64,000 bases of DNA from Pseudomonadota bacterium (GTDB lineage Bacteria; Pseudomonadota; Gammaproteobacteria; Burkholderiales; Rhodocyclaceae), in contig JAPLQT010000039.1 in assembly GCA_026399515.1 (NCBI GenBank), positions 1 to 64,000 on the forward strand, written 5' to 3'. The position numbers and the translations under genes were made by a program. How positions within the stretch are numbered: the first letter of the stretch is position 1; each line of letters starts with the position of its first letter. Shown here in pieces: positions 2,416-45,727 of this stretch. The notes under the pieces are model-generated. The model did no database searches, had not been told where the DNA came from, and saw nothing but the letters and a program-made list of their open reading frames with translations.

Positions 2416-3897
2416 ATGCTGCCAGGACAGTTGCTGTTTTTCGTATTTGCCTATTTCGGGCTGTTGCTCGGCGTGGCCTGGGTGACTTCGCGCAACGCGA
2501 ACAACGGCTTCTTCATCGGCAACCACGGCAGCAACTGGATGCTGGTGTCCTTCGGCATGGTCGGGACCTCCTTGAGCGGTGTGACCTTCATCAGCGTTCC
2601 CGGCGCGGTGGGCATCGACGGCTTCGGCTATATGCAGGTGGTCCTCGGCTATGTCCTCGGCTACCTGGTCATCGCGTTCGTGTTGTTGCCCTTGTATTAC
2701 CGGCACCAGCTCACCTCGATCTACCGTTATCTCGATACCCGCCTGGGGAGCGGCGCCTATATGACTGGCGCGAGTTTCTTCATCCTGTCGCGCACGCTGG
2801 GCGCTACGGCCCGCTTGTACCTGGTCGTCAGGATCTTGCAGGACGTGATCCTGGATGGTTTCCATGTGCCTTTCTGGCTGACGGCGCTGGTCATCCTCGC
2901 GATGATCCTGTTGTACACCTATGAAGGCGGCGTCAAGACCATCGTTTGGACGGACACCCTGCAAACCACCTGCATGCTGCTGGGCCTGGCGATTTGCGTA
3001 GCTTATATTCTCGGCAGCCTGAATCTCTCTTTCGGCGACAGCCTCCGGCAAATGCAGGAGCGCGATCTATCGAAGGTCTTTTCATTCGACTTCAACAGCA
3101 AGAACTACTTCGTCAAGCAGGTGCTGGCCGGGATGTTCATCGCCATCGCCATGACCGGAATGGATCAGGAAATGATGCAGAAGACCATCTCGGTCAAGAC
3201 CCTGGCGGACTCCCGGAAGAACATCATCGTCCTGAGCATGACCATCGTGGCGGTGATACTGCTGTTCCTCTACCTGGGAGGCTTGCTGTACCTGTATTCC
3301 CCCGTCGTAGGCGTCACCGCGACGGGCGACAGGATCTTTCCCGCCATCGTGTTAGGTCATCTGCCCGCTATGGTCCAAATGATTTTCGTCGTCGCCCTGA
3401 TTTCAGCGTTATTCCCCAGCGCTGACGGCGCGATCACCGCGCTTACCTCGTCTTTCTGCATCGACATCCTGAAATTCAAGCAGCGCCACGACATGGGCGA
3501 AGTGGAGCAGAAGCGCCTGCGCCATCGAGTCCATCTGTGTTTCGCATTGCTGTTCCTGGTCCTGGTCATGCTCTTCAGGTGGGCCGACAACCCCAGCATG
3601 ATAGGCATCATCCTGAAACTCGCGGGATATACTTACGGGCCGCTGCTGGGCTTGTTCGCCTTCGGCATCCTGACCCGCCGTGCGGTGAAAAACTCGTGGG
3701 TTCCTTATGTTGCGGTGCTGGCGCCGCTGATCTGTTATGGCCTGGACGTTTATCAGCGCATGTTGTTCGGCGCCTATGAGATCGGCCTTGAATTGCTGCT
3801 CATCAATGGCCTGCTGACCTTCGCCGGTTTGTGGATGATTTCAAGGCCTGATGGGGCTGCAGTGGGGAATTCCCATGCTGCCGCGTTGCTTCCTTGA
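2416..3897 (+). CDS. Sodium:solute symporter (SSS family)
   Basis: 493-residue inner-membrane protein with about 13 hydrophobic segments and typical SSS sequence, including GMVGTSLSGVTFISVPG near the N-terminus and YTYEGGVKTIVWTD in the middle. The family uses a sodium gradient to import sugars, sialic acids, amino acids or nucleosides. Start 2416 is chosen over 2392 because AAGGA at 2405-2409 lies 6 nt upstream, while 2392 has no Shine-Dalgarno. It is divergent from the amino-sugar kinase operon and first in a rightward group of cell-wall genes. An amino sugar such as MurNAc or GlcNAc, or anhydro-muropeptide, is a reasonable cargo, but this is inference from context. Confidence 0.87.
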   Translation: MLPGQLLFFVFAYFGLLLGVAWVTSRNANNGFFIGNHGSNWMLVSFGMVGTSLSGVTFISVPGAVGIDGFGYMQVVLGYVLGYLVIAFVLLPLYYRHQLTSIYRYLDTRLGSGAYMTGASFFILSRTLGATARLYLVVRILQDVILDGFHVPFWLTALVILAMILLYTYEGGVKTIVWTDTLQTTCMLLGLAICVAYILGSLNLSFGDSLRQMQERDLSKVFSFDFNSKNYFVKQVLAGMFIAIAMTGMDQEMMQKTISVKTLADSRKNIIVLSMTIVAVILLFLYLGGLLYLYSPVVGVTATGDRIFPAIVLGHLPAMVQMIFVVALISALFPSADGAITALTSSFCIDILKFKQRHDMGEVEQKRLRHRVHLCFALLFLVLVMLFRWADNPSMIGIILKLAGYTYGPLLGLFAFGILTRRAVKNSWVPYVAVLAPLICYGLDVYQRMLFGAYEIGLELLLINGLLTFAGLWMISRPDGAAVGNSHAAALLP

Positions 3898-3927
3898 ACG
3901 AATAATGTGTAAGAGCGAGAGCAGAAT

Positions 3928-5109
3928 ATGACGCTTCGAAATTGCTTGTCTGCATTGCTTTGCGCGGGAACTCTGCTCATGAGCCTTAACTGTACCGCCG
4001 ACAATTCCAAATTGGATGAGGAGCTTGGCGCGGTGGTCAACGACCCGTCCCATCCCCTGGCCAGCCTGTCGGTGCTGGCGGTGCTGTCGCTCGATGCGGA
4101 CGTCGGCAAACTGCTCGGCTATGCCCTACGCAATCCTCATTTCCCGGACCGGCCGATCACCCTGCGGATGTTGCTGTCCCACACATCTTCGTTGCGCGAC
4201 GATGGCGGCTACTACTGGGAGTCGATGCGTTCGCTGAAAGAAGTGGTGCTGCCCGGTGGCTCCCTATATGGCAACGGAGCGATGTGGGCTCGCAACGCCC
4301 CGCCCGGCAGCTATTTCAGTTACACCAACTTGAATTCCGGTATTGTCGCGGCCCTGATGGAGAAGGCCAGCGGCGAGCGTTTCGATCTCTTGATGAAACG
4401 CCTGATCCTGGACCCTATGGACTTGCACGGCGGTTTCAATCCGGCGGAATTCTCTGCTACCGACCTGAAGAATCTCGCCACGCTCTACCGCAAGCGCACC
4501 GAAGTCGACGGCAAGGAAATCTGGAATCCAGCCGGGCCGTGGGGCGCGCAGGTCGACGACTACAGTCGGGAGGCGCCGGTTCCCCGCGCCGGACCGGAAT
4601 ACGCGATCGGCAGCAACGGAACGTTAATGGGTCCGCAGGGCGGCCTGAGAATTTCGGCGGCCGACCTGGGCAAGATCATGCTGATGCTGATCAATCGGGG
4701 CAAACATGAAGGCAAGCAGATCCTCAAGCCGGAAACCCTCGCCGCGATGTTTGCCGAGCAATGGCGCCATGACGGCAGGCGCGACAACGGCGATACCTAC
4801 CGTGGACTCTTCAACGCCTGGGGGCTCGGCAACCAGCATTTCCTGGACATCAGCGCACCAGGAACCGGCGACCGGCTGGTCGAAGGCGGCGGATTCAGCG
4901 GAGTCGGCCACCTGGGCGATGCCTGGGGCCTGACCGCGGCATTCGTGTTCGACCCGGCGACCAGGAACGGAGCCATCTACCTGATCGGCGGGCCGGGCAG
5001 CGATCCGGAGGCCTACAAGGGTCTCTATTCCTCGCGCTACCGTTATGAGGAATTGATCATGAGCGCGTTGTACCTGCACGCAATTCAGAAAACGGAATCG
5101 AAACAATAA
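3928..5109 (+). CDS. Beta-lactamase-fold serine hydrolase lacking the SxxK motif
   Basis: 393-residue exported protein (signal-like residues 1-24) of the class-C beta-lactamase/AmpH-like family. Family landmarks are present: LDADVGKLLGY, ITLRMLLSHTSSLRD, the YTN (YxN) motif at 132-134 and a GHLG (HxG) motif near residue 328. However, SLSVLAV (about 46-52) runs straight into LSLDADVG. In relatives about 45-55 residues lie here, carrying a strand pair and the catalytic Ser-x-x-Lys. No other suitable SxxK is seen. The frame stays open, so this looks like an in-frame internal deletion near 4075-4090 giving a dead enzyme or binding-only protein. It sits between the symporter and a phosphodiester glycosidase. 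Confidence 0.82.
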   Translation: MTLRNCLSALLCAGTLLMSLNCTADNSKLDEELGAVVNDPSHPLASLSVLAVLSLDADVGKLLGYALRNPHFPDRPITLRMLLSHTSSLRDDGGYYWESMRSLKEVVLPGGSLYGNGAMWARNAPPGSYFSYTNLNSGIVAALMEKASGERFDLLMKRLILDPMDLHGGFNPAEFSATDLKNLATLYRKRTEVDGKEIWNPAGPWGAQVDDYSREAPVPRAGPEYAIGSNGTLMGPQGGLRISAADLGKIMLMLINRGKHEGKQILKPETLAAMFAEQWRHDGRRDNGDTYRGLFNAWGLGNQHFLDISAPGTGDRLVEGGGFSGVGHLGDAWGLTAAFVFDPATRNGAIYLIGGPGSDPEAYKGLYSSRYRYEELIMSALYLHAIQKTESKQ

Positions 5110-39895: not shown

Positions 39896-40177
39896 ATGAG
39901 CAATGTGAAAAGCACCACCGATTACGACAAGGCCCGCATCATCGAACGGCCGGACGGCTTCTATTGGCAGGACAAACAGACAGACGAAGAGTTCGGTCCC
40001 TTCGACGACGCCCTCGAAGCCGTCGCCGACATGGAGGACAGCCTCAGTTCCGACGACCCGCTCGAAATGGCGGAAGGACTCAATGAAGCCGAGGAGGAAA
40101 TCGGCATCGCCAACTGGATCGACCCGGACACCGGCGAACCCGCCGAAGAATCGGTTCCGCACATCGAAGAGCATTGA
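39896..40177 (+). CDS. Small acidic conserved hypothetical protein
   Basis: 93 residues, strongly acidic, with ERPDGFYWQDKQTDEEFGPFDDALEAVADME followed by a Glu/Asp-rich tail. AGGAAATGCACA precedes the start at 39896. Similar short acidic proteins are frequent in betaproteobacteria, but I know of no assigned function. It lies upstream of nnrDE on the same strand with a 120-bp gap. Confidence 0.75.
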   Translation: MSNVKSTTDYDKARIIERPDGFYWQDKQTDEEFGPFDDALEAVADMEDSLSSDDPLEMAEGLNEAEEEIGIANWIDPDTGEPAEESVPHIEEH

Positions 40178-40300
40178 GCAGGGCCGACCGGTCGTTCCTG
40201 CACCGGCGGAAATTCGGCATGGATAATCCCCGCCGGGCGACGCGAAGCTCTATCATCCCGTCCTGGCGATGAACCGTCGGCACACAAGCACTGATATCCG

Positions 40301-41776
40301 ATGCACAATCTTCAACCCATCCTGCGCGGCGCCAGCTTGCGCGACATCGAGCGCCGCCACAACAACGTCCAACCGCCGCTGATGGAGCGCGCCGGTGCGG
40401 CGGCGGCCGATCTCGCCGGGCAACTGCTGGCAGGGTCCGCCAAACCTCCGTTGATCGTCGCCGGTCCTGGCAACAACGGCGGCGATGCGTTGGTGGTGGC
40501 GCGTCTCCTGAAACAGAAAGGATTGCAACCCGTCGTGGTGTTTGCCGGCACGGTAGAAAAATTGCCGGCCGATGCCCGCGCCGCCCATGACGCATGGATA
40601 GCATGCAGCGGCACCCTCCATCCGGACATTCCTCCGGGCGACTATGGCCTGGCCGTCGATGGCCTGTTCGGTATCGGCATTGCCCGTCCGCTGGAAGGTC
40701 GTTATGCGGCGCTGGTGGCGCGCATCAACGAACTGCGCTGCCCGGTGCTAGCCCTCGACATCCCCAGCGGGCTTGATTCGGAAACCGGCCGGGCCATGGG
40801 TGTGGCGGTCAATGCCATGCACACGGCGACATTCATCGCCCTCAAGCCCGGCCTGCTGACGCTGGACGGCCCGGATCATTGCGGCGATGTCAGCGTGCAT
40901 GATCTCGGCCTCAGTGTCGAACTGAGCGTCGCCATGACAGATGGATGCACGATCGCCCCGCCGCTGTTCGCCAAGCACCTACAAGCGCGCCGGAAGAATT
41001 CGCACAAGGGCAGCAACGGCAGCGCCGGCATCCTCGGCGGCGCCCCCGGCATGGCCGGCGCCGCGCTGCTGGCGGGACGCGCCGCCCTCCAGCTCGGCGC
41101 GGGGCGAGTCTATGTCGGCATGCTGGAACGACTCGCCGTCGATCCGCTGCAACCCGAGCTGATGCTGCGCGCCGCCGACGAAGTGTTCGCGCTCGCCACC
41201 TGCCTCGCCGTCGGCCCCGGCCTGGGACAGTCCGCCGCCGCCCTAGCCCTGTTGCGCCGCGCGATCGACACCGACCTGCCGCTGCTGCTCGACGCCGACG
41301 CGCTGAACCTGCTCGCCGCACATCCGGTGCTGGCCGGCATCGTCGCCCGGCGCACATCACCGACCGTGCTGACGCCGCATCCCGCCGAAGCCGGACGCCT
41401 GCTCGCCAGCGACGCCGACGCGGTGCAAGCCGACCGCATTGCCGCCACACAGGAACTGACGCGGCGCTTCAACGCCGCGACCGTATTGAAAGGCTGCGGC
41501 AGCATCGTCGCCCTCCCCGACGGCCGCTGGTTCATCAACACCAGCGGCAACCCCGGCCTCGCCTCCGCCGGCACCGGCGACGTGCTCTCCGGCCTGGCCG
41601 TCGCGCTGCTGGCGCAAGGCTGGCCGGTTGCAGAGGCACTACTTGCGGCGGTCCATCTGCACGGTGCCGCCGCCGATGCCTGCGTCGCCGCCGGCATCGG
41701 CCCTATTGGCTTGACCGCCGAAGAGTTGATAGCCCCCTCCCGCAGATTGCTCAACGACTGGATCGCGACGCGGTAG
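40301..41776 (+). CDS. nnr: Bifunctional NAD(P)H-hydrate epimerase / ADP-dependent dehydratase
   Basis: 491 residues. The N-terminal YjeF_N epimerase domain (about 1-210; AGPGNNGGDALVVARLL, LALDIPSGLDSETG) interconverts R- and S-NADHX. The C-terminal ribokinase-like dehydratase (about 230-490; KGSNGSAGILGGAPGMAGAA, TPHPAEAGRLL, GNPGLASAGTGDVLSGL) restores NAD(P)H using ADP. This is a metabolite-repair enzyme of the cytosol. Both active sites look intact. A small perfect hairpin follows 20 bp after the stop. Confidence 0.96.
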   Translation: MHNLQPILRGASLRDIERRHNNVQPPLMERAGAAAADLAGQLLAGSAKPPLIVAGPGNNGGDALVVARLLKQKGLQPVVVFAGTVEKLPADARAAHDAWIACSGTLHPDIPPGDYGLAVDGLFGIGIARPLEGRYAALVARINELRCPVLALDIPSGLDSETGRAMGVAVNAMHTATFIALKPGLLTLDGPDHCGDVSVHDLGLSVELSVAMTDGCTIAPPLFAKHLQARRKNSHKGSNGSAGILGGAPGMAGAALLAGRAALQLGAGRVYVGMLERLAVDPLQPELMLRAADEVFALATCLAVGPGLGQSAAALALLRRAIDTDLPLLLDADALNLLAAHPVLAGIVARRTSPTVLTPHPAEAGRLLASDADAVQADRIAATQELTRRFNAATVLKGCGSIVALPDGRWFINTSGNPGLASAGTGDVLSGLAVALLAQGWPVAEALLAAVHLHGAAADACVAAGIGPIGLTAEELIAPSRRLLNDWIATR

Positions 41777-41796
41777 GTACCTGAACCCCGCGCCGA

Positions 41797-41819
41797 CAAA
41801 TGATGCTTGTCATCATTTG
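41797..41819 (+). terminator. Stem-loop after nnr
   Basis: CAAATGATG (41797-41805) and CATCATTTG (41811-41819) form a perfect 9-bp stem with a 5-nt loop, 20 bp after the nnr stop. It is AT-rich and lacks a strong T-run, so termination is plausible but weak. Confidence 0.4.
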
Positions 41820-41928
41820 GAATTGGGGGTTTAATCCAGTTTGCATACGACTGTACGTTGCACGTGAATGCACTTGTCGACACGGTTTGGCGGCTTAGGC
41901 GGCTTACGAGATTGATAGGACTTCTCGA

Positions 41929-42021
41929 ATGGCTTATAACTCGGCATCACTTGCGCAACTGATGGCAAGCATGCGCGATGACATGCGGTTGAATTCCGAA
42001 ATCGCGCACGAATTGTCATAG
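41929..42021 (+). CDS. Possible 30-residue peptide or interrupted gene start
   Basis: MAYNSASLAQLMASMRDDMR plus ten more residues to a TAG, with AGGA 8 nt upstream of the ATG. It stops 8 bp before the left boundary of the putative integron cassette at 42029. It may be a genuine tiny gene or the surviving start of a gene interrupted by the cassette insertion. No family was recognised. Confidence 0.3.
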   Translation: MAYNSASLAQLMASMRDDMRLNSEIAHELS

Positions 42022-42028
42022 ACATTGC

Positions 42029-42962
42029 GTTGGGCCGCCAAGGAATGCATATGGAACTCGTAGAGAATCAAGCCCAAGTAGAGAGGAACATTTGCACACT
42101 TGAGAAGGCACGTCGATCCTCAGACGACAGTTTGCGGTCTTACCAGTCACTTATCAAGCGCGGAACCTGCTTCGTTGTGTATGAATCAGACTCTGGCGTC
42201 GCTTTCGCACCATCAAAGTTCATCGGGTATGTCAATAATGCGCTTGAGTTGCATATTGAGGACAGGAGAAATCGCGATGGCCGAGATACTAATAAGGCAC
42301 TAGCGGCCGTCTTCGGTCATGGTCCCGAGCTGGATACCTCAGCGGAGGCTGGGTACCGCGCGTTTTGCGAGCGCATCGGGATTCAGCCGGGAAAGACTGG
42401 GACGGCCGGTGCGAAGCGGAAGTTCTGGATCCCAGAGAACCTTTCGGAGGTGTTGTCGGATTTCGCCATCGCGGAGATCGAGGGCGACTCGACGCTGACT
42501 CAAACCGAAAAGCGGCAGTTAGTCAAAGCGCGACTGGGTCAAGGACAGTTTCGCACGGACCTATTCAGCGTCTGGCGCGCCTGTTGCCTTACCGGATGCT
42601 CGCTACGTAGTGTGTTGAAGGCGTCACACATAAAGCCTTGGTGCAAGAGCGACAACACGGAGCGACTCGACAAGTTTAACGGCTTGCTTCTCTCGCCCAA
42701 CGCAGATGCTCTCTTTGACCGAGGCTACATATCATTCTCGGATGCAGGCGAATTGATGATTTCGCCGCAACTCTCGGAGGACGCTCGAAAGGCCCTACTC
42801 ATTGGTTGCAAGAAGAGGATCTCAATACTGGCATCTCACCTTCCGTACCTCGCATACCATCGTGCTCATTGTTTTCGTGGTAAAGCGGCCCAACCAGGCG
42901 TTCCAGCCGAGTTTGTTCCGTCGCTGCTTCACCGCGACGGAACAAACTCGGCTGAACTAGGA
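42029..42962 (+). mobile_element. Putative lone integron gene cassette carrying an HNH endonuclease
   Basis: The left boundary GTTGGGC (42029-42035) fits the integron core GTTRRRY. At the other end GCCCAAC (42888-42894), its exact reverse complement, is the R'' box of an attC-like structure. This complementarity between cassette start and R'' is the signature of a recombined cassette. One ORF in the same orientation fills the unit. The expected right GTTRRRY is replaced by CGGAGGA, so the right boundary is damaged. No integrase gene is in the window. Confidence 0.6.
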
Positions 42963-43013
42963 CGGAGGATCAAAGGGGCCAGGGTCAGATTGACCAGACA
43001 AAACGAGCCGTGA
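42051..43013 (+). CDS. HNH endonuclease
   Basis: 320 residues. The C-terminal third carries an HNH_2-type nuclease: SVWRACCLTGCSLRSVL, KASHIKPWCKSDNTERLDKFNG and LLLSPNADALFDRGYISF hold the expected His-Asn-His and DRG residues. The N-terminal part resembles domains in putative restriction endonucleases. AAGGA (42040-42044) sits 6 nt before the ATG at 42051. Base composition is lower in GC than the neighbours, supporting transfer. The last 40 or so codons run through the attC-like hairpin and are probably a read-through tail. A one-base shift would stop at a TAA at 42881-42883. It could be a restriction or defence nuclease. No methylase is adjacent. Confidence 0.82.
   Translation: MELVENQAQVERNICTLEKARRSSDDSLRSYQSLIKRGTCFVVYESDSGVAFAPSKFIGYVNNALELHIEDRRNRDGRDTNKALAAVFGHGPELDTSAEAGYRAFCERIGIQPGKTGTAGAKRKFWIPENLSEVLSDFAIAEIEGDSTLTQTEKRQLVKARLGQGQFRTDLFSVWRACCLTGCSLRSVLKASHIKPWCKSDNTERLDKFNGLLLSPNADALFDRGYISFSDAGELMISPQLSEDARKALLIGCKKRISILASHLPYLAYHRAHCFRGKAAQPGVPAEFVPSLLHRDGTNSAELGRRIKGARVRLTRQNEP
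42888..42962 (+). other. attC-like recombination site (59-base element)
   Basis: Order of parts: R'' GCCCAAC (42888-42894), 5-nt spacer CAGGC, L'' GTTCCAGCCGA (42900-42910), a 14-bp stem with 9-nt loop (42911-42947), L' TCGGCTGAAC (42948-42957), and 5-nt spacer TAGGA. L'' has one extra C relative to the reverse complement of L', matching the extrahelical base that IntI uses for strand choice. The stem from 42905 is perfect for 20 bp. The final R' box is not conserved (CGGAGGA). Confidence 0.6.
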
Positions 43014-43152
43014 CTCCTGGCGCAAGCGATAATGTCACCTACGCCGGTCATCTCAAACATAGGCCTTCTTCATATCCTGCTGCGTCGCCCCCATACTGGC
43101 ATGCCGATTGCGTTGGGCTATTAAGTGATCAACAGCATTTGAGGAATCTCCC

Positions 43153-43889
43153 GTGCAAATCCAATCAGCCAGCGCCTATTCGGCCGCGTCGCTTCTGAAT
43201 GTTTCATCGCGCCAAGAACAAAAACCCGCCATTGCTACTACGGCAAGTTCTACCGCCTCAACGGCAACTTCTGCCGACAGGACAACTATTTCCCAGGCTG
43301 CGCGAGATCTTCTCGCCGCTCAATCCAGGACATCGGCAACGACGGGAAACAGCGCGACGGCCTTGTTCGACACGGATCAAGGTTCCAAGAATCTGAACAT
43401 AGACGCTTACTTCTCGAACAGGCCGGGGCCTGCTGTCCAATCGCTCTAGACGCTTCCTCCGCGCTGCTTCCGAGCCAGAAGAATGTCGACGCCCTGACCA
43501 AGCACATTTCGGCGACCTTCCCGCAATTCCTGGTCGAACACAATATTCCATCTGCGCCTGCCAGCATCACCTACGACAACGAAGGAAATATCCAGCTCCC
43601 CGCCAATTATCCCTACGCTTCGGAACTCAAGCAGGCGCTGGAAAACAACCCGACGATGGCCCGGGAACTCAGCACCGTCAATGCCCTTGCCTCGCACGTT
43701 GCCGAGATGAAAAAGCTCGCTCCGTTCCAGCAGGAATACGCCGCCGCCACAACGCAGGCAGAGGCCGATGCGATTGTCGCCAAATACAGCTACCTGTTCT
43801 CAGGCGCTCATCATCACGACACCATTGCCCTGCAATTCTCGGCGAATGGCAGTCTGAGCCTGACCGCCGACGGCAAGCCCCTGTCATAG
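43153..43889 (+). pseudogene. Frameshifted hypothetical gene
   Basis: The first part (43153-43446) reads a Ser/Thr/Ala-rich N-terminus (MQIQSASAYSAASLLNVSSR, TTISQAARDLLAAQ) and stops at TAG 43447-43449. In the -1 frame the sequence continues without a break from CTA at 43446 (LDASSALLPSQKNVDALTKH) to a stop at 43887-43889. One missing base near 43440-43446 explains it. The rejoined product of about 245 residues resembles uncharacterised betaproteobacterial proteins with a low-complexity start. A slippery site for programmed frameshifting is not evident. Confidence 0.7.
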
Positions 43890-43991
43890 CCGGTTGCGTT
43901 ATCATTGGTAAGCGTGGATGCCGTGCCTTCACCGTAGAACTAGCGAGGGCCGGCGTCTCATGCACGGCCACGCTGCATCAAGGAGATCACC

Positions 43992-44477
43992 GTGATTCGA
44001 CCCGCCATCGCCACTGACGCCGATTCGATCGCCCGGATTTACAACCACTACGTTCTCAACACCATCATTACCTTCGAGGAACAAGCAGTTTCCGCACAGG
44101 AGATGGCCGGACGCATCGACGAGGTCACATCGGCATCCTTGCCGTGGTTGGTCGTGGAGGACGCCGGCCGGATCGTGGGCTATGCCTACGCTTCGAAGTG
44201 GAAGGGGCGTTGCGCGTATCGCTTTTCCGTCGAGAGCACCGTCTACCTCGATCCGGATTCCGCGGGAAAAGGATACGGCACCAGACTCTACGAACGCCTC
44301 TTCGCCTCGCTCAGGGAGTGCGGAATGCATGTGGTTATAGGCGGCATCGCCCTGCCCAATCCCGCCAGCATCGCGCTCCACGAGAAACTTGGCATGAAGA
44401 AGGCGGCTCACTTTAGTGAGGTCGGCTACAAGTTCGGAAAGTGGATCGATGTCGGTTACTGGCAGGCCACGTTGTGA
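43992..44477 (+). CDS. GNAT acetyltransferase, phosphinothricin acetyltransferase-like
   Basis: 161 residues starting at GTG with AGGAG 6 nt upstream. Features of the PAT/bar/ArsN clade: IRPAIATDADSIARIYNHYVLNTIITFEE, GYAYASKWKGRCAYRFSVESTVYLDP, the acetyl-CoA loop AGKGYGTRLY and NPASIALHEKLGMKKAAHFSEVGYKFGKW. It acetylates an amino group on a small toxic compound or amino-acid analogue. The true substrate is unknown. It stands alone in the accessory region. Confidence 0.9.
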   Translation: MIRPAIATDADSIARIYNHYVLNTIITFEEQAVSAQEMAGRIDEVTSASLPWLVVEDAGRIVGYAYASKWKGRCAYRFSVESTVYLDPDSAGKGYGTRLYERLFASLRECGMHVVIGGIALPNPASIALHEKLGMKKAAHFSEVGYKFGKWIDVGYWQATL

Positions 44478-44594
44478 GGCCGATTTCATGACCAGATTAC
44501 GGGTTTTCAGGTATATCTATTAGCGATTACGAACCTTATCATTCCCGGCAAGCTTGAAGGCAACATGGCAACTTGATATTCAAAGGAGACCGCT

Positions 44595-44969
44595 ATGTCA
44601 ATCAAACGCACATCGCCTCGCAGCCTGTTGGTCGCCTCCCTTCTATGCGGTGTTTTCTGGCCCGGCATACTGTTGGCACAGACCGCCCTGGACATAGGCG
44701 CCACTCTGAAAACTCAAAATGCCGTCAAGTTGAGAGCACTGCCGCCCTCCCAGAAATTCTTGTTTCTGGTGACCGAACCGGGCGACGAAATCGCGAAAAT
44801 GAAGGAAGGCGAGAAGATCAAGATTCAGGAGGTCAAGGAAATCGCCGTGCCTTTCGGCAAGGACATATGGGTCAAGGGCAAGACGGAAAAAGGGGAAACC
44901 GGGTGGGTCTATTACGGCGAAAAGGACAAGCCGGTGAATTTCCTGGACACGACGAAAGCGAAGGAGTGA
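44595..44969 (+). CDS. Exported SH3-like protein
   Basis: 124 residues. AAGGAG precedes the start, and a signal peptide covers about 1-29 (ending ILLAQ). The mature part (NAVKLRALPPSQKFLFLVTEPGD, EKIKIQEVKEI, KGETGWVYYGEK) resembles a bacterial SH3 domain, often peptide- or wall-binding. It is followed after 4 bp by a small membrane protein, suggesting a two-gene unit of unknown function. Confidence 0.65.
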   Translation: MSIKRTSPRSLLVASLLCGVFWPGILLAQTALDIGATLKTQNAVKLRALPPSQKFLFLVTEPGDEIAKMKEGEKIKIQEVKEIAVPFGKDIWVKGKTEKGETGWVYYGEKDKPVNFLDTTKAKE

Positions 44970-44973
44970 AGCG

Positions 44974-45276
44974 ATGGAACCCAACTACTCCGTAACCAAT
45001 GTGCTTGCGGTCACCGTTCCGTTTCTCTGTTATTACTTTGGCATCTTCGTGCGAAAAATGGTTTTGCCCGGAAAGGAGAGCCCGCCGCTCAGCCATCAAT
45101 TTCTCCTCGGGATACCCGTCTCCCTGGTGGTCGTCTCGCCGATGATACCGGTCTATCTTGCGGCGTATTCCAATGTCTCGGCCTTGCTGATAACCTTGGG
45201 CGTCATCATGGAACACGGAATGCTGGTCAACGAAACCGCTACGGTGCATCTTAAGAAACTCACCGCTCGCGGCTGA
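44974..45276 (+). CDS. Small membrane protein of unknown function
   Basis: 100 residues with three hydrophobic stretches (about 8-26, 44-66, 69-86). It starts 4 bp after the SH3-like gene, so it is probably co-translated. No family was recognised, and the C-terminus is basic and cytosolic by the positive-inside rule. Confidence 0.65.
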   Translation: MEPNYSVTNVLAVTVPFLCYYFGIFVRKMVLPGKESPPLSHQFLLGIPVSLVVVSPMIPVYLAAYSNVSALLITLGVIMEHGMLVNETATVHLKKLTARG

Positions 45277-45355
45277 CGCAGACTCCGCGACGTCACTGCA
45301 ACCACTACCCCGCTGCCGCAGCACACGCGGTCATCCAGAACGAAGAGGAGTTTCC

Positions 45356-45727
45356 ATGCCATCCCCAGAAATCCTGAAGCGTTTTATCGCCATGGTCGAA
45401 GCTAACACCCATGTCGAGGCGATCGAGGAGTTCTACGCGCCGCATGCATCCATGCAGGAGAACGAGTCACCCCCGCGAACCGGCCGCGACGCGCTGGTGG
45501 CGAACGAAAGGAAAGTCCTGTCGCGGGCACGATCACTGAGCTCGGAATGTGTGCATCCGGTATTCGTTAACGGCGACCAAGTGGTCATTCGTTGGATATT
45601 CAAGTTCGAGGGCCACGATGGCACGAGTACCCGGCTGGACGAGCTGGCGTACCAGCGCTGGGAGAACGATCGCATCGTCGAGGAAAAGTTCTTCTACGAT
45701 CCACGTCAAGTGAAGCCGCGTGGGTAG
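45356..45727 (+). CDS. SnoaL/NTF2-like protein
   Basis: 123 residues of the nuclear-transport-factor-2 fold: LKRFIAMVEANTHVEAIEEFYAP, a central NGDQVVIRWIFKFEG and a C-terminal RWENDRIVEEKFFYDPRQ. Such proteins are small cone-shaped enzymes or binding proteins. GGAGTTTCC precedes the start. It is 6 bp upstream of the GFA-family gene, so the two are likely co-transcribed. Confidence 0.88.
   Translation: MPSPEILKRFIAMVEANTHVEAIEEFYAPHASMQENESPPRTGRDALVANERKVLSRARSLSSECVHPVFVNGDQVVIRWIFKFEGHDGTSTRLDELAYQRWENDRIVEEKFFYDPRQVKPRG

Follow-up and report, generated by a model that had tools for sequence, protein, structure and literature searches.

The cassette and its recombination site

The window, by which we mean the whole stretch of DNA analysed (64,000 nt, positions 1–64000 of contig C36 in a 5.3-Mb assembly of 139 contigs), contains a gene for an HNH endonuclease whose reading frame runs into a hairpin with the layout of an integron attC site. 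The features are collected in Table 1.

Table 1. Features of the HNH gene cassette and its flanks (window coordinates; a slash marks a junction).
Feature	Position	Strand	Basis
Possible, unproven attI-like left flank (TAGACATTGC/GTTGGGC)	42015–42035	+	attI matrix, 2.2 bits
Left junction G/TTGGGC; crossover G 42029, cassette start 42030	42029–42035	+	exact complement of R''
HNH gene cassette, 935 bp, left crossover to right crossover G	42030–42964	+	sequence; attC models R1 and R2
AAGGA, likely ribosome-binding site, 6 nt 5' of ATG 42051	42040–42044	+	sequence; inference
HNH endonuclease ORF, stop 43011–43013, frame crossing attC	42051–43013	+	ORF list; domain match
attC without the TTRRRY of R'	42888–42964	+	R2 34.5 bits, E 2.9e-5; R1 19.5 bits; fold z −8.08
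R'' GCCCAAC, followed by 5-nt spacer CAGGC	42888–42894	+	part of attC
L'' GTT-C-CAGCCGA, one extrahelical C	42900–42910	+	part of attC
Stem, perfect 21 bp, arms 42904–42924 and 42934–42954	42904–42954	+	part of attC
L' TCGGCTG-AAC	42948–42957	+	part of attC
6-nt spacer TAGGAC (42958–42963), then crossover G 42964	42958–42964	+	part of attC
GAGGAT where TTRRRY of R' is expected	42965–42970	+	sequence; R1
Remains of a decayed second attC (inner stem, 3' half)	43021–43058	+	similarity to C22-array attC

A gathering scan of the 64-kb window with Rfam gave no family, and we therefore built our own attC covariance models, using as training sites the cassette arrays adjoining intI in relatives together with the array on contig C22 of the same genome. 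R1 is the full attC model (25 sites, 16 pairs); because the site in the window has no R', a second model, R2, was built without TTRRRY (26 sites). The training set of R1 (alignment A3) omits L083:7077 and L084:11025, which were misaligned in A2, as well as L088:1254, L089:3259, L089:7667, L093:7820, L094:2695, L078:2024, L090:7670 and L082:2273, the grounds being odd length, another attC type, misalignment or doubt; minus-strand duplicates were omitted too, and L088:1254 was restored in the training of R2 (A4). Three attCs of the C22 array sit in both training sets, so that their matches in the own genome arise by construction.

Searched over the window with default filters, R1 returned the site as its sole match at E ≤ 10 (E 0.015), and with the filters off over 40000–45500 the site came first (E 0.0013), followed by five others at E 1 to 5.1. 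The R2 match ended at the crossover G, the next match in the window having an E of 2.4. Scaled to the whole genome, the E value becomes 1.27 with R1, which expects R', and 0.0024 with R2, and the site ranks 25th among the 38 R2 matches listed genome-wide. None of 200 shuffles folded as well as its bottom strand. Judged from its sequence, 42888–42964 is an attC site that lacks only its R' box: R'', L'' with its extrahelical base, the stem, L' and the spacers are all in place, and after L' there is GGAGGAT (42964–42970) instead of GTTRRRY. The original prediction had described an attC with correct spacers, an extrahelical base in L'', a long stem and a lost right R' box, and had proposed covariance scoring as the check; every one of these elements was found, and both models score the hairpin as an attC.

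At the left junction the sequence is ...AGACATTGCG/TTGGGCCGCC, with the G at 42029; the cassette thus spans 42030–42964, a correction of the 42029–42962 first given. The GTTGGGC found there is complementary to R'', as had been claimed, and the junction follows the G/TTRRRY rule for the left edge of a cassette. The match of the two 7-base boxes is by itself at chance level, because GTTGGGC occurs four times and GCCCAAC three times in the window; it is the whole attC site that carries the evidence. The cargo, also as predicted, is a single ORF in the orientation of the attC, encoding an HNH nuclease (HNH_2, PF13391, E 1.7e-11). The ORF list starts it at TTG 42030. We prefer ATG 42051, which lies 22 nt from the junction, versus 26–28 nt in homologous cassettes (there GTTATGC or GTTATAC). 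The frame passes through the attC, so that the tail of the protein is encoded by the recombination site and the flank (42888–43013). In the homologue of Undibacterium aquatile (L098) the stop codon is supplied by R'' (GCG GCA TAA C, with R'' GCATAAC); the counterpart in the window is GCG GCC CAA (R'' GCCCAAC), and it is this replacement that leaves the frame open to 43013. The HNH frame of another homologue, in L102, likewise enters its attC.

A lower GC content of the cargo had been taken as a further mark of the cassette. The value is indeed lower (0.544 over 42030–42964 versus 0.613 over 1–41776), but it is not specific to the cassette, as the low-GC tract extends over 41777–45355 (0.498 for 41777–42029, 0.532 for 42965–43152 and 0.561 for 43153–45355).

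A probable remnant of a second attC downstream

The 38 nt at 43021–43058, which lie 56 nt downstream of the first attC, align with an attC of the C22 array with a local score of 36, a value that none of 1000 control pieces from the window reached (maximum 33; 50 own-genome attCs were used, all in one orientation). A smaller run gave the same best score, with none of 391 controls as good. A blastn search of the stretch against 121 genomes gave matches of 78–82% in G004 (E 0.0026), G003 (E 0.0087 and 0.060) and the own C22 (E 0.074), and all four matched sites were called attC independently by R2. R1 applied to 42988–43058 gave 6.8 bits and an E of only 2; about 38 nt of the site can still be recognised, and nothing of the 5' half. 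Since half of a decayed attC lies this close, the HNH cassette is probably not lone, and what is preserved would be the remnant of a short decayed array. The description of the cassette as lone holds for attCs above threshold, of which there is one, and becomes doubtful once the decayed half is counted.

Two other features of these flanks should be mentioned. A 34-nt direct repeat (42002–42035 and 43085–43118; identity 71%, complete over the last 12 bases, ATTGCGTTGGGC) brackets the cassette and the attC remnant; it is neither an attC nor clearly an attI, and in the attI matrix described below its second copy scored −10.7. A dispersed repeat at 42960–42990, with likeness to L211 and L212, was considered as the cause of the R' loss and could not be established: allowing for as many as three mismatches, its 27-mer has one copy in the own genome, and its 14-base core has 13 copies in 6 of 61 genomes, seven of them in one genome, versus one copy of the reversed control.

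Integrases and attC sites in the genome and its relatives

The search for IntI that had been recommended was positive: two full-length IntI frames above the TIGR02249 cut-off are present, on contigs C22 and C87. Throughout, the genome-wide attC counts, for this genome and for relatives, are lower bounds, 150 candidate sites having been scored per genome. R1 gave at least 41 matches at E ≤ 10 (at E ≤ 0.01, at least 34 on at least 16 contigs), and R2 at least 38 matches (at E ≤ 0.01, at least 25 on at least 14 contigs, C36 included). The R' or R'' boxes are damaged in many of the own-genome attCs (27 sites displayed). With its two integrases and its dozens of attCs at varied stages of decay, this genome may be read as a natural record of cassettes becoming ordinary chromosomal genes. 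One more observation from the same genome is that the C22 array ends in an attC with a cut R' (GTCAAAC/TACAAGGG), after which lies an IS110-family transposase gene (PF02371, PF01548; L012:7728-9122).

At E ≤ 1e-80, intI is present in 84 of 150 genomes of relatives, the own genome included. Among seven genomes negative for intI at this threshold, three have no R2 match at E ≤ 0.01 among those listed; the other four have at least one, three, five and 13, which we read as attCs without a (detected) integrase. G444 combines at least 13 attC matches at E ≤ 0.01 with no intI at E ≤ 1e-80, and its integrase may have been lost, fall in an assembly gap or be too diverged. In G020, which belongs to the same family, at least 30 R2 attC matches and four intI matches, one of them with a stop, are spread over a 5.2-Mb chromosome; the genome being a single contig, this dispersal is no effect of assembly.

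An empty version of the site was searched at the DNA level in 61 genomes and no relative with these flanks was found; besides the own genome, the search returned just 67 bases of the yjeF-like gene upstream of the cassette, in G003. The neighbouring GNAT gene is itself accessory: with a threshold of E ≤ 1e-30, four of 41 genomes have it, counting the own one, and none of the three genus mates does.

Homologues carried as cassettes elsewhere

The same gene was to be looked for in integron arrays, and it is there. In U. aquatile (L098) the HNH gene (4001–4837) lies between attCs at 3881–3979 and 4835–4906, and two more attCs are present. In a gammaproteobacterial MAG (L102) it comes right after a HAD-family gene (Pfam HAD), which we take to be serB-like, with a GTTATGC at its start; after it come an attC (4837–4905), a PIN7-domain gene and a weaker attC (R1 28.2 bits, no R2 match at E ≤ 1). 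In L225, from a genome of the same order (G751), GTTATAC precedes the gene and an attC (2339–2393) follows it. These three loci share the point, past the conserved C terminus, at which the attC begins. The locus L224 (G689) has attC scores equal to those of L098 and is probably not independent of it. In Zoogloea (L103) a GTTATGC precedes the HNH gene, and some 1.1 kb past the end of the gene lies an attC. The full-length aligned relatives are 32–52% identical to the protein of the window, those in cassettes 48–50%. As a separate observation, the HNH and PIN7 two-cassette cluster of L102 (3137–6521) lies among chromosomal genes (HemN-like, TraB-like and methyltransferase), and tblastn found no intI match in that stretch.

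Order-wide, 3 of 399 genomes match the protein at E ≤ 1e-50, namely the own genome, G689 and G751, and in both of the latter an attC lies directly 3' of the HNH gene. Of 24 full-length homologues in alignment A6, the gene adjoins an attC in two (L098 and L102), with L103 having one nearby (R1 and R2). By the loci compared, the HNH gene family is sometimes, and not mainly, cassette-borne. Four weak R1 matches on one strand in Vibrio metschnikovii (L109; 13.8–16.8 bits, E 0.5–2.9), and others near the homologues of L121 and L145, were also seen; R2, like R1 trained without Vibrio sites, gave no confirmation at L109 and L121. IntI searched by tblastn in 30 other loci, with flanks of at most about 4 kb, gave nothing at E ≤ 1e-3.

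Class-wide, 27 of 369 genomes match at E ≤ 1e-10; apart from the own genome, one of these has the protein at full length. In plasmids, 107 records match, three over most of the protein and all below 60% identity; the attC had no match there, nor the cassette DNA any in phages. When the genome contigs were searched at the protein level, the single sequence led to no confirmed relative; with an alignment as query, relatives were confirmed among the best 80 matches. From the protein alignments we omitted L106 (one stop in frame), L116 (longer match) and, as partial matches, L121 and L125–L177; the plasmid rows L045–L047 and L017 are in A5 and out of A6 and A7. A literature search for integrons or attC sites in Rhodocyclaceae found none, and one for an integron cassette with an HNH endonuclease and an attC was matched just by an oral-metagenome study.

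Origin of the cassette

The explanation we favour, with a probability of about 65%, is that this is a chromosomal integron cassette with a VcaM4I-type HNH gene as cargo, the residue of a small array that lay downstream of the yjeF-like gene and decayed there. The anatomy suggests that the cassette would have been captured by attC recombination, through one of the two IntI of the genome or an ancestral one; the TTGGGC at the left edge would be the R' half, and on the right the cassette would end with the attC, as far as the crossover G. At a later time the R' box that came after it would have disappeared, together with most of the cassette next in line, of which the half attC similar to those of the C22 array would be what is left. 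Since R' is missing and no upstream attC was detected in the window, excision by IntI is no longer to be expected and the HNH gene is probably fixed, much as the original prediction had it.

The locus agrees with an integron gene cassette in its single ORF, its 3' attC, its left junction complementary to R'' and its common orientation, and with a cassette of a chromosomal (sedentary) integron in that full-length IntI are found elsewhere in the genome. It differs in the missing R' at the right end, in standing almost alone and in having no proved integrase or attI at the locus. As attC-bearing DNA away from intI, with no intI match in the window, it is also like a CALIN. A CALIN has at least two close attCs, however, and here there is one above threshold plus the decayed half; two attCs are also the default of IntegronFinder according to PMC12444791.

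A single circular cassette could instead have been inserted by IntI acting in trans at an attG-like chromosomal site, in which case R' was never present. The primary paper on cassette insertion outside integrons is reportedly that of Loot et al. 2024. Such insertions are documented in PMC12444791 and PMC12901181, and are in print also in PMC10127599, which gives GNT as the target motif of IntI1 and reports as well a junction without GTT nearby. Both junctions are precise in the window, the genome has two IntI, and the R2 match stops exactly at G 42964, as an insertion of this kind would also predict. The L102 pair, which lies between chromosomal genes, after a HAD-family gene and without intI there, could be a parallel case. 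Against this, the target triplet implied by G 42029 and GA 42965–42966 is GGA, unlike GNT, and the half attC downstream is left unexplained. We consider this origin rather unlikely, and decay of an array in place accounts for that downstream remnant.

It is more improbable still that the left flank is a decayed attI, with the HNH gene as first cassette of a complete integron whose intI was deleted. The flank TAGACATTGC/GTTGGGC is indeed similar to the attI core presumed for this bacterial family, as seen for instance in the C22 integron of the own genome (GTCGACATTACGTTAGG). In a matrix built from 22 of 31 attI candidates (nine unlike ones were dropped, including that of the own C87 integrase), its score was the best of the 41 GTTRRRY sites of the window, and was reached by 6 of 968 such sites elsewhere and by 1 of 25 attC R' ends. 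But it is lower than that of all 22 presumed attIs (4.9–20.5, leave one out), themselves chosen from the 31. Of 1533 GTT sites in the window, three are as high, and unconstrained alignment of the flank to attI was not significant, with 18 of 300 controls as high. In addition, the window contains no trace of IntI that tblastn could detect at E ≤ 1e-3. We take the likeness as a hint.

Finally, an ordinary hairpin after the HNH gene, such as a terminator with an accidental likeness to attC, is very improbable: a perfect 21-bp hairpin needs no integron, and the 7-base boxes recur in the window as noted, but there is no T-run 3' of the stem, the conserved attC elements are correctly spaced and include an extrahelical base, an attC occupies the same position in homologous genes, and the fold z and the R2 score argue against chance.

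With array decay as the preferred reading, the locus is a good specimen of an already known kind, an integron cassette with a decayed recombination site, and a clear case of integron cargo that outlasted its broken recombination site outside an array.

The encoded nuclease

PADLOC labels the protein HNH or REase_II. Its HNH half (residues 136–276) matches without gaps that of VcaM4I (6yex; phmmer E 9.4e-33), described in PMC7897488 as an EVE-HNH modification-dependent restriction endonuclease whose H224A variant is inactive. Here H193 is aligned with H224, and the assignment to the VcaM4I type concerns the HNH domain, with this pair as the catalytic residue compared individually. The protein retains all 37 columns that are invariant in 24 other homologues and 51 of the 52 that are constant in at least 22 of the 24. 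The AlphaFold2 model (pLDDT 88.8, pTM 0.62) aligns by VIA-align with 6yex (Z 19.8, rmsd 4.6, 138 residues) and with TagI (Z 10.6, rmsd 2.9, 104 residues). From these similarities the protein probably cuts DNA.

The difference from VcaM4I, a type of enzyme whose modification sensor is a PUA-superfamily domain (EVE or SRA), lies in the N-terminal domain, which is mainly helical when its 147 residues are modelled alone (pLDDT 90.4, pTM 0.84) and resembles neither EVE nor any other PDB chain at a detectable level. A Pfam scan of the domain in 25 members gave no family at E ≤ 0.01 (best 0.012), and Foldseek gave no PDB match with an E below 1; the lack of a match is no demonstration that the modelled domain has a new fold. 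If VcaM4I and TagI are taken as a guide, its most likely role may be that of a sensor of DNA modification, for example in phage DNA.

Integron cassettes with defence genes are known from recent papers. A modification-dependent restriction enzyme is a plausible function for this protein, and the phage-defence cargo hinted at in the original prediction is likewise plausible in view of the VcaM4I-type HNH domain; a partly cassette-borne nuclease family with an uncharacterised N-terminal domain would be a candidate source of anti-phage cargo. As a tentative and rather doubtful extension, these proteins may be type IV-like restriction enzymes that act stand-alone and form one family, in which the N-terminal domain (F-x-P-S-x-x-x-G-Y-x-x-N core) would be a modification sensor of unsolved fold. 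Integron cassettes would account for part of the spread of the family between betaproteobacteria and gammaproteobacteria, and decay of the attC would at times have fixed a member in the chromosome.

Two homologues in other settings were noted along the way. That of Kluyvera georgiana (L106) has an in-frame stop in the matched stretch and is possibly a pseudogene. In Acinetobacter (L045, L046 and L113) the HNH homologue is located 3' of xseA-xseB (exonuclease VII), in what could be a three-gene unit; among the loci tested, xseAB adjoins the homologue in these three only.
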